Part shown: in pieces, positions 24,485 to 26,513 of the stretch
Position numbering within the stretch: position 1 is the stretch's first letter
How the letters are laid out: every line of letters begins with the position of its first letter
Source: an uncultured Clostridia bacterium
GTDB lineage: Bacteria; Bacillota; Clostridia; Lutisporales; Lutisporaceae
Assembly: GCA_937976095.1 (NCBI GenBank)
Contig: CALJSV010000269.1
Location: 1-36,469, forward strand
Reading direction: 5' to 3'
DNA: 36,469 bases
Notes under the pieces: generated by a model
Told to the model about the DNA's origin: nothing
What the model saw: the letters and a program-made list of their open reading frames with translations, nothing else
The model's database searches: none
Made by a program: the position numbers and the translations under genes

Positions 24485-25144
24485 GTGATAAAAATAGCCC
24501 CATCTATATTGTCGGCAGACTTTGCAAACCTGGAAAGAGATATAAGACTTGTAGAGGAAGCAGGTGCTGACATGCTTCATATAGATGTAATGGATGGGCA
24601 CTTTGTGCCAAACATTACAATTGGACATCCTGTTGTAAAAAGCTTAAGAAAAAAAAGCAAGCTTATTTTTGACTGCCATCTGATGATAAATAATCCCGAA
24701 AGCTACATTGATGCTTTTGCAGATAGCGGCGCAGATATAATAACAGTACATGCGGAGGCAACAGTGCATTTACATAGACTGATTCAAATGATAAAGGATA
24801 AGGGTAAAAAAGCAGGGGTAGCGCTTAATCCTGCGACTCCTGTGGATGTACTTCAGCATGTAATAAGTGATTTAGATATGGTGCTGATAATGAGTGTAAA
24901 TCCGGGCTTTGGAGGTCAGCGCTTTATTAGTGCCGCCCATCAGAAGCTTTCAAAGGTAAGGTCTATGACACAGGAATTAGGAAAAAACATAGATGTTCAG
25001 GTTGATGGAGGCGTTGGGCTGGATAATATTTATGATATAGCCAAAAGTGGTGCAAACATAATGGTAGCCGGCTCTGCTGTTTTTAGTTCCGGAGATATTC
25101 CTTATACCATAAAAGAAATGAAAAGATTATGCGAAAAGCTATGA
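24485..25144 (+). CDS. rpe: Ribulose-phosphate 3-epimerase
   Basis: Interconverts ribulose 5-phosphate and xylulose 5-phosphate in the pentose phosphate pathway. 219-residue TIM barrel with APSILSADFANL, HIDVMDGHFVPN (metal His and Asp), CHLMI, MSVNPGFGGQ and DGGV. The GTG start at 24485 follows AAGGAGGT (24470-24477), one base after the rsgA stop, and the end overlaps thiN (ATGA). Confidence 0.96.
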   Translation: MIKIAPSILSADFANLERDIRLVEEAGADMLHIDVMDGHFVPNITIGHPVVKSLRKKSKLIFDCHLMINNPESYIDAFADSGADIITVHAEATVHLHRLIQMIKDKGKKAGVALNPATPVDVLQHVISDLDMVLIMSVNPGFGGQRFISAAHQKLSKVRSMTQELGKNIDVQVDGGVGLDNIYDIAKSGANIMVAGSAVFSSGDIPYTIKEMKRLCEKL

Positions 25145-25773
25145 AAACTGTAATTATTAGCAGTGGTGCAATCAACAGCTATGATTATATGAAAGATGTT
25201 ATAAGCAAGGCAGATTATATAATATGTGCAGATGGTGGTATGAGACATGCTTTTCATATGAATATTGTACCAAATCTTATAATTGGAGACCTTGATTCAG
25301 CTGCAATTGAGCACATACAACATTTTAGATCATGTGGAGTTCAGTTTTTAGAATATGACGCAGATAAAGACAAGACAGATACCCAAATATGCCTGGAACA
25401 TGCACTAAAGCTTGCAAGTGAAATAATACTTATCGGGTCATTGGGAACCCGAATAGATCATTCCATAGCAAATATTTCCTTGCTAAAGCTTGCACTGGAT
25501 ACTAAGGTGCCTGCTTCTATTATGGATGAGAAGAATACAATTTATATGACTAATGGTACGCTTTCTATAAGTGGAAAGAAGGGTGAATATCTTTCCCTTA
25601 TACCCATTTCCGAAAGAGTTGAAGGCGTATGCTGCAGTGGTGTTATGTATCCCCTGGAAGAGGCAGAAATGGTGATAGGCAATCCATATGGTGTAAGTAA
25701 TCGCTTTGAAAATGATACTGCACTCATAAGTATAACTAAGGGTTACTTATTGGTTATAAAGTCTAGGGACTAG
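25141..25773 (+). CDS. thiN: Thiamine pyrophosphokinase
   Basis: Transfers pyrophosphate from ATP to thiamine. 210 residues with CADGGM, IGDLDS, DKDKTDTQ and GSLGTRIDHSIAN, the characteristic motifs of the catalytic domain. I chose ATG 25141, which overlaps the rpe stop as ATGA; ATG 25129 is in frame but adds four residues inside rpe. It is the last gene before a strong terminator. Confidence 0.94.
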   Translation: MKTVIISSGAINSYDYMKDVISKADYIICADGGMRHAFHMNIVPNLIIGDLDSAAIEHIQHFRSCGVQFLEYDADKDKTDTQICLEHALKLASEIILIGSLGTRIDHSIANISLLKLALDTKVPASIMDEKNTIYMTNGTLSISGKKGEYLSLIPISERVEGVCCSGVMYPLEEAEMVIGNPYGVSNRFENDTALISITKGYLLVIKSRD

Positions 25774-25791
25774 TTAATATAAATATTAAGC

Positions 25792-25835
25792 TTATAGCTA
25801 TGTATGAAAGCACATACATAGCTATAATTTTTTTT
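25792..25835 (+). terminator. Rho-independent terminator after thiN
   Basis: A 15-bp perfect stem, TTATAGCTATGTATG (25792-25806) with CATACATAGCTATAA (25813-25827), 6-base loop AAAGCA, followed by T7 or more. It closes the long core-gene run. Confidence 0.95.
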
Positions 25836-25930
25836 GAATAGTGTCAAAACAAGCAGCGGTTGAATATTATATATAGTGAAGCAATATTTTTAGAATTTGT
25901 GGACATAACTGCAGTATGGGGGGTATGAGA

Positions 25931-26086
25931 ATGAGATATACCAGCAGGAAGTACGCAGGCTATCTATGCGTAGCGCTTTCAGTAATAATAATTTCAAGGT
26001 TTATTCCCATCTGGGTATTTGGATTTGTTTCATTACTCATAGTTTCAGCCATAGGATATCTGCTGTTCAACTATTTATATAGTTAG
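25931..26086 (+). CDS. Small hydrophobic membrane protein (51 aa)
   Basis: Not recognised. MRYTSRKYAG gives a basic N terminus, followed by two hydrophobic stretches (about 11-22 and 26-48) separated around RFIPIW, so it could form a membrane hairpin. ATG 25931 lies 8 bases after a run of six G (25918-25923); ATG 25925 would be too close. It has the same plan (basic start, Gly, hydrophobic, Pro turn, Gly-rich hydrophobic) as the next small gene. It sits where B. subtilis has spoVM but is twice as long and shows no SpoVM-like sequence. Confidence 0.55.
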   Translation: MRYTSRKYAGYLCVALSVIIISRFIPIWVFGFVSLLIVSAIGYLLFNYLYS

Positions 26087-26119
26087 GCAGCAGAACACTA
26101 ATATACGAGGAGGGTTAAT

Positions 26120-26272
26120 ATGAAGCTATTCAGACGTCAAAGAGTTGTAGGAATACTTATACTATCTATAGGCTCGGGAATCCTGCTAGCCATGATAGTA
26201 CCTATAGTGGGGTGGATTATTTTCTCTGCCATTTGCCTTATATGCATAGGTGCATATCTCCTGAAATGTTAG
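26120..26272 (+). CDS. Small hydrophobic membrane protein (50 aa)
   Basis: Not assigned to a named family. MKLFRRQRVVG is strongly basic, followed by two hydrophobic segments (about 11-29 and 31-47) around a MIVPIVGW turn, ending in LLKC. AGGAGGG (26109-26115) is correctly spaced before ATG 26120, a strong sign of translation. It follows the preceding small gene by 33 bases and is probably co-transcribed with it. The function is unknown; the position next to rpmB suggests comparison with small sporulation membrane proteins. Confidence 0.65.
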   Translation: MKLFRRQRVVGILILSIGSGILLAMIVPIVGWIIFSAICLICIGAYLLKC

Positions 26273-26290
26273 GTTAACAAAAAATACAAA

Positions 26291-26316
26291 GAGCGCGTTT
26301 AACGCGCCTTTTAACA
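26291..26316. terminator. Shared terminator between the small genes and rpmB
   Basis: GCGCGTT (26293-26299) pairs with AACGCGC (26301-26307) in a nearly continuous palindrome. CCTTTT follows on the plus strand; on the minus strand CTTTGTATTTTT follows. It separates two convergent units. Confidence 0.7.
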
Positions 26317-26321
26317 TGTTG

Positions 26322-26513
26322 TTAGACAGCTCTTTGAACCTTTCCGGATCTTAAGCATCTTGTGCAAACGTGTAATCTTTGTGGAGTTCCGTTTACAACT
26401 GCTCTTACTGTTCTAATATTAGGAAGCCATACTCTTCTGGACTTTCTATTAGAGTGACTAACCTTATTACCTGAAATCATGCCTTTTCCGCAAACCTCGC
26501 AATGTCTTGACAT
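26322..26513 (-). CDS. rpmB: 50S ribosomal protein L28
   Basis: 63-residue L28 of the zinc-ribbon (C+) type: Cys5 and Cys8 (HCEVCGKG) with Cys50 and Cys53 (HVCTRC), plus the RRVWLPNIRTVR core. It is oriented against its neighbours, as rpmB is in B. subtilis. ATG at 26513 is preceded by AAGGAGGTG (complement of 26521-26529). Confidence 0.96.
   Translation of the reverse strand: MSRHCEVCGKGMISGNKVSHSNRKSRRVWLPNIRTVRAVVNGTPQRLHVCTRCLRSGKVQRAV

Follow-up and report, generated by a model that had tools for sequence, protein, structure and literature searches.

The window, by which we mean the whole stretch of DNA analyzed (36,469 nt from an uncultured Clostridia bacterium), contains two small open reading frames, here called A and B, in tandem on the plus strand between thiN and rpmB. 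The upstream neighbor thiN (25129–25773, plus strand) encodes thiamine diphosphokinase, or thiamine pyrophosphokinase (TIGR01378 with 163 bits, PF04263, PF04265), and the convergent neighbor rpmB (26322–26513, minus strand) encodes ribosomal protein L28 (PF00830, TIGR00009); both identities are given by Pfam as well as NCBIfam. An intrinsic terminator recovered in a terminator scan follows thiN on the plus strand (25792–25827), in which a 15-pair stem precedes eight T residues (-19.4 kcal/mol, z -5.6). Since thiN has its own terminator, A and B need a separate promoter. A promoter-like element, TGTCAAA-N14-AATATTATA, is located ahead of A at 25842–25871 (plus strand) and corresponds to a class-wide motif upstream of B-spoVM genes. 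B and rpmB are separated by a short GC stem (26292–26308), a terminator-like site for the minus strand. The sequence of this stem, aaaagcgcg..cgcgctttt, is present in most genomes of the window's family.

ORF A (25931–26086, plus strand) encodes a hydrophobic protein of 51 amino acids with a basic N terminus and two hydrophobic stretches flanking an Arg-x-x-Pro. The 50-amino acid hydrophobic protein encoded by ORF B (26120–26272, plus strand) also has a basic N terminus, followed by G-x-G, Pro-x-x-Gly-Trp, and Gly. The start of A is the conserved ATG at 25931 and its stop codon is at 26084–26086. Further in-frame ATGs occur at 25925 and 25916; the alignment of relatives begins at 25931. Both ribosome-binding sites are strong and purine-rich (GGGGGG at 25918–25923 for A, GAGGAGGG at 26107–26114 for B). 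The sequence-only reading had described two small hydrophobic proteins here that may escape annotation. Both ORFs are present at that place and on that strand, and neither matches any Pfam or NCBIfam family above its cut-off. Low-scoring matches, among them Bax1-I, PSI_8 and SepX/GlpR, were rejected as identities because they are compositional.

A and B are real conserved genes. Within the window's family, B has a match in each of the 22 genomes and A in all but one; every one of the 21 genomes with both ORFs shows the order thiN-A-B followed by convergent rpmB. The co-conservation with thiN and rpmB that the sequence-only reading proposed looking for in relatives therefore holds. The sole exception, G006 (L021:744–1644), has rpe-B followed by convergent rpmB, with neither thiN nor A at the locus. 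M1, R23 and P26 are invariant among the 21 A sequences, and the 22 B sequences have 11 invariant columns.

Differences at the first, second and third codon positions are 0.42, 0.30 and 0.61 for A and 0.40, 0.27 and 0.64 for B. The third position thus varies most and the second least, which is a coding pattern. This bears on whether the short ORFs could be a translated leader that sets the expression of the next gene, with no need for the peptides themselves. Such a leader would suit short ORFs that immediately precede a gene and are separated from it by small gaps. However, in the window's family there is no gene between B and the convergent rpmB, yet both proteins are kept, and the low rate of change at codon position 2 also speaks for the peptides. 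We regard a leader as very improbable.

The B family and its neighbors

To place B in a wider context we used a sample of 391 genomes of the class, 19 of which belong to the window's family. B was found in 60 of these with a profile of B sequences from the window's family and in 88 with an iterated profile. A scan of genome contigs with a narrower alignment matched only seven named relatives. Removing from the 88 the 19 genomes of the window's family and two false matches (G267 and G355, where the match falls within a longer, different ORF) leaves 67 B-positive genomes outside the family. The SpoVM model NF033436 gave 129 matches in the 391 genomes at E 0.01, 15 of them over its curated cut-off.

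In all 35 class genomes outside the window's family that have both matches, spoVM follows B immediately on the same strand, across a gap of 19–76 nt. Another 34 B matches come from genomes without a match to the SpoVM model. By eye, a SpoVM-like peptide is found just downstream of B in 31 of these, and the remaining three are the two false B matches and G323. B therefore serves as a synteny marker for spoVM, having pointed to 31 genes in this sample that the public model missed. Approached from the other side, a small hydrophobic ORF ends within 130 nt upstream of 71 of the 129 SpoVM matches, whereas for random anchors placed in these loci the count is 48 of 2087; the count of 71 still includes G194 and G234, which are ends of larger genes. 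No small hydrophobic ORF precedes the other 58 SpoVM matches, and B, though widespread, is therefore not found at every spoVM locus.

Beyond the class, eight genomes gave matches and five loci were inspected, with the three weak phylum matches G437, G438 and G449 left out. In three of the five, B directly precedes a SpoVM-like peptide. The other two (L305 and L308) were rejected because they encode larger proteins, PspC-like by eye. Outside the window's family, B is almost always found as the immediate upstream neighbor of spoVM, usually across a gap of less than 100 nt. Members of the B family are expected to have thiN, nth or rpe on one side and rpmB on the other, and this is the location of B in the window.

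The flanking genes vary. In families f38, f47 and f57, whose genomes are 1.1–2.0 Mb, thiN beside the cluster is often replaced by nth, which encodes endonuclease III. At most of these nth-flanked loci (e.g. L080, L081, L103) rpmB still adjoins. In six genomes of a single genus (f17/g23; L253, L252, L234, L246, L237, L203), B-spoVM is divergent from spoIVA, with B 204–210 nt away, an arrangement that brings basement-layer genes together.

A also exists outside the window's family. The A profile matches five genomes of family f22 (G172, G128, G101, G075 and G042, E 1.5e-7 to 9e-4). In the first four, the A match is followed by a second small ORF, so that the order is thiN-A-B-spoVM, and the same order is found by eye in G150. 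In a tree built from 63 proteins and 55 alignment columns, the A proteins of the window's family group with those of f22 (85/90), and the single A-type genes of G040, G057 and G084 join them; the long branches and few columns make this grouping only suggestive.

The sequence-only reading regarded A and B as diverged duplicates. A comparison of A and B profiles with alignments from the window's family only gave a probability of 13.5%, which is not significant. The comparison was extended by adding A sequences from the second family and by using a 100-protein model of B, in which the window's family is not represented and from which G194 and G234 were set aside. With these alignments hhalign gives a probability of 96.8, and 15 of 17 A sequences outscore every one of 1020 shuffles in which the hydrophobic pattern is preserved. 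The window's own ORF A scores 20.8 bits against the 100-protein model, compared with a maximum of 11.1 among the 1020 shuffles. ORF B matches the 27-row B profile with E 2.9e-21, although this profile includes ORF B itself. The extended profile comparison and the shuffle scores thus bear out the suggestion of duplication, and indicate that A and B are distant paralogues whose mutual homology goes beyond composition.

Taken together, the best explanation of these arrangements is that (A)-B-spoVM is an old sporulation gene cluster with rpmB on one side and thiN, nth or rpe on the other.

SpoVM and SpoIVA in the window's family

SpoVM, the textbook spore-coat anchor, binds positively curved membrane and SpoIVA. 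The sequence-only reading had seen no SpoVM-like peptide between thiN and rpmB, and indeed none is found in the window's interval, where the gap between B and rpmB is only 49 nt. Unlike at the usual B loci, spoVM does not lie directly downstream of B. Model NF033436 matches nothing in the genome of the window itself, nor in any of the 19 genomes that represent its family in the class sample. We also collected 125 SpoVM peptides, 69 of which entered a clostridial alignment. The resulting profile found nothing credible in the 22 family genomes, the best hit having E 0.04 over 11 residues. The search for spoVM elsewhere that the sequence-only reading had proposed therefore returned none in any of the 22 genomes. 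SpoIVA, on the other hand, is over its cut-off in 21 of the 22. A failure to find spoVM in some clostridia has been reported (Galperin et al. 2012, PMC3533761), and spoVM appears to have been lost in the window's lineage.

Alternatively, SpoVM could still be present in the window's family, either moved or diverged beyond recognition, and A and B would be its former neighbors only. SpoVM is a peptide of about 23–26 residues, the public model is weak in Clostridia (its cut-off was passed by 15 of 129 matches), and it missed the 31 peptides adjoining B that were found by eye. Against this, the 69-sequence profile also gave nothing credible, and in 10 of the 22 genomes B and rpmB are separated by less than the 78 nt (26 codons) that would hold the peptide. 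SpoIVA itself provides a further argument. Its C-terminal tail is reported to contain the SpoVM contact in B. subtilis (PMC5607322), and the differences described here lie close to the residue linked with SpoVM binding. This tail carries N[DN]x[KR] in all 12 members of the window's family examined, compared with NEG in all 8 others, and the family sequences (L310–L321) have an ending of the type ...III where other clostridia have ...IIL or ILL. In one family member, G016, the tail motif is followed by KS instead of KG. Such a change might follow the loss of the partner SpoVM, though it is suggestive only. We consider a hidden SpoVM unlikely and the loss of spoVM the better account.

The description of A and B as occupying the spoVM position is correct for the slot. 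It does not hold in the sense that they stand by nature in place of SpoVM, as B normally adjoins SpoVM on its upstream side. What is unusual in the window's family is the apparent absence of SpoVM.

Promoter, sporulation and a proposed role

A motif search in 104 upstream regions outside the window's family (best of 12 starts) identified a class-wide motif ahead of B-spoVM genes, TGT[CA]ACA, 14–17 nt, [CA]ATATAATA. The window's family was outside the training set. With the matrix trained only on the 104 regions, the element in the window scores 15.3, while the maximum of 30 shuffles is 12.1. Among the 21 regions ahead of A in the window's family, 14 exceed the 95% point of the shuffles (mean 12.0 compared with 5.1), and the seven misses are five genomes of genus g2 together with L006 and L011. 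A shared promoter of mother-cell type therefore seems to precede the cluster, and most genomes of the window's family seem to retain a recognizable copy upstream of A.

In 20 of 21 genomes of the window's family (L002–L022; all but the window), the -10 of this putative promoter (TATTAT or TATGAT) is located within or next to a hairpin loop. These hairpins (e.g. L017:1823–1876) have energies of -10 to -25 kcal/mol, their arms covary, and T runs mostly follow. They look like a thiN terminator that encloses the promoter of the next gene. In the window the terminator is separate, with no hairpin at the -10 of A (-0.7).

The sigma E and sigma K promoters of C. difficile are reported to have common -10 elements and to differ in the -35, with ATA and AC, respectively (PMC3789822). 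With its -35 AC and its -10 CATA/AATA, the class-wide motif resembles this mother-cell consensus (PMC3789822), and the AC makes it sigma K-like. The window's own element does not keep this AC, and it can also be read as the sigma A-like GTGTCA-N18-TATTAT, which matches 9 of 12 consensus positions; chance alone would give 3.3 sites of this kind in that stretch. Sigma E as the factor for the A-B promoter is not favored by comparison with the spoIVA sites of the window's family, which by eye are of the type TAATATT-N13-CATATATAT and unlike the A-B element. However, in C. difficile spoVM is reported to be cotranscribed with CD25622, which encodes a 50-amino acid protein of unknown function, and its transcription to need sigma E (Ribis et al. 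2017, PMC5607322). The -35 of the motif fits sigma K better, yet C. difficile spoVM is reported to depend on sigma E, so neither is preferred here.

SpoIVA occurs in 60 of the 67 B-positive genomes outside the family, compared with 39 of 80 genomes sampled among those that match neither B nor SpoVM (Fisher p 8e-8, in a test that ignores shared ancestry). Three of the seven B-positive genomes without a SpoIVA match are 61–85% complete. These seven, the persistence of B without SpoVM in the window's family, and the sigma A reading of the window's element would fit a different account, in which A and B are general small envelope proteins transcribed during growth from a sigma A promoter, with an inherited linkage to spoVM and no role in sporulation. 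However, B accompanies spoVM across different flanks (thiN, nth, and in one genus beside spoIVA), the class-wide motif keeps a -35 that is sigma K-like rather than sigma A-like, and SpoIVA is enriched where B occurs. The cotranscription of a B-like gene with the sigma E-dependent spoVM of C. difficile (PMC5607322) likewise argues against a general envelope function, which we think rather improbable. A link of A and B to sporulation, which the sequence-only reading had offered as one option, is instead supported by the spoVM neighborhood, the putative shared promoter, and the co-occurrence with SpoIVA.

We propose, with moderate confidence, that A and B are mother-cell membrane proteins of a sporulation gene cluster which act at the forespore/coat interface and have outlived SpoVM. 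A and B would be made in the mother cell during sporulation and would each form a short helical hairpin in the membrane that surrounds the forespore. Their basic ends would face the mother cell, on the coat side of the outer forespore membrane. Two features suggest a short hairpin whose ends both remain on the side where the protein is synthesized, namely basic N termini and a Pro/Gly-Trp break that separates the hydrophobic stretches. AlphaFold2 models B as one long helix and A as two helices, both with low confidence; these models disagree and are too weak to serve in choosing between a hairpin and a single helix. SpoIVA would build the base of the coat at the membrane holding A and B, and the two proteins would help to anchor or shape the SpoIVA layer or its membrane. 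Part of this job at least would be SpoVM-independent, since A and B outlive SpoVM in the window's family. Given their place, putative promoter and partners, help to the SpoIVA coat base is the most likely function.

A stronger form of the proposal, in which the SpoVM anchor is lost and the A-B pair is itself the membrane anchor of the SpoIVA coat basement in the window's lineage, seems to us doubtful. Disruption of CD25622, which is polar on spoVM, is reported to cause a 3–4-fold defect in heat resistance, the same as disruption of spoVM alone, so that little effect was attributed to CD25622 (PMC5607322). By analogy, this result would not favor A-B as a replacement for SpoVM. SpoVM is also reported to be nearly dispensable in C. 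difficile, where according to Ribis et al. SpoIVA might be assisted by a redundant factor when SpoVM is absent (PMC5607322). If A and B do anchor SpoIVA, they would be this redundant factor, through which SpoIVA might encase the forespore in the absence of SpoVM. They would also represent a transmembrane alternative to the amphipathic, curvature-sensing peptide that elsewhere performs the task. The B family, widespread, almost unannotated and fixed beside spoVM, is a concrete candidate for the means by which SpoIVA reaches the forespore in clostridia where SpoVM is nearly dispensable or was not found. A sporulating lineage that retains the family after the apparent loss of spoVM offers a natural experiment.

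Comparison with known systems

A and B share with SpoVM (NF033436) the slot between thiN and rpmB and the character of a short basic-hydrophobic membrane peptide. However, SpoVM is amphipathic and about 23–26 amino acids long, whereas A and B have 51 and 50 amino acids and two hydrophobic stretches. The SpoVM model does not appear among the NCBIfam results for A or B, and B coexists with SpoVM in other genomes. Bacillus has a small sporulation protein, CmpA, that acts around the SpoVM/SpoIVA basement layer. A and B as proposed here would resemble it in role. CmpA is reported to be exclusive to Bacillales (PMC5607322).

The closest known counterpart of B is CD25622, which is probably a member of the B family; we infer this from its published description. 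Like B, CD25622 has 50 amino acids and lies directly upstream of spoVM and near rpmB, and the two genes are cotranscribed (PMC5607322). In our sample, G309 has a 50-amino acid B homologue 35 nt before a SpoVM peptide, and its SpoIVA has an Asn at the site given as Asn491 in the published account (PMC5607322). CD25622 is described there as unique to the Peptostreptococcaceae (PMC5607322), whereas the B family, which we define by sequence, occurs in many families of the class and extends to other classes. Among open-license articles in PubMed Central, as far as their accessible text goes, we found no paper on the wider B family, on A, or on a lineage that keeps the family without spoVM. The window's lineage differs from the CD25622 locus in having a second paralogue and in lacking spoVM. 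The A-B pair is thus a variant of a little-studied, already known arrangement.
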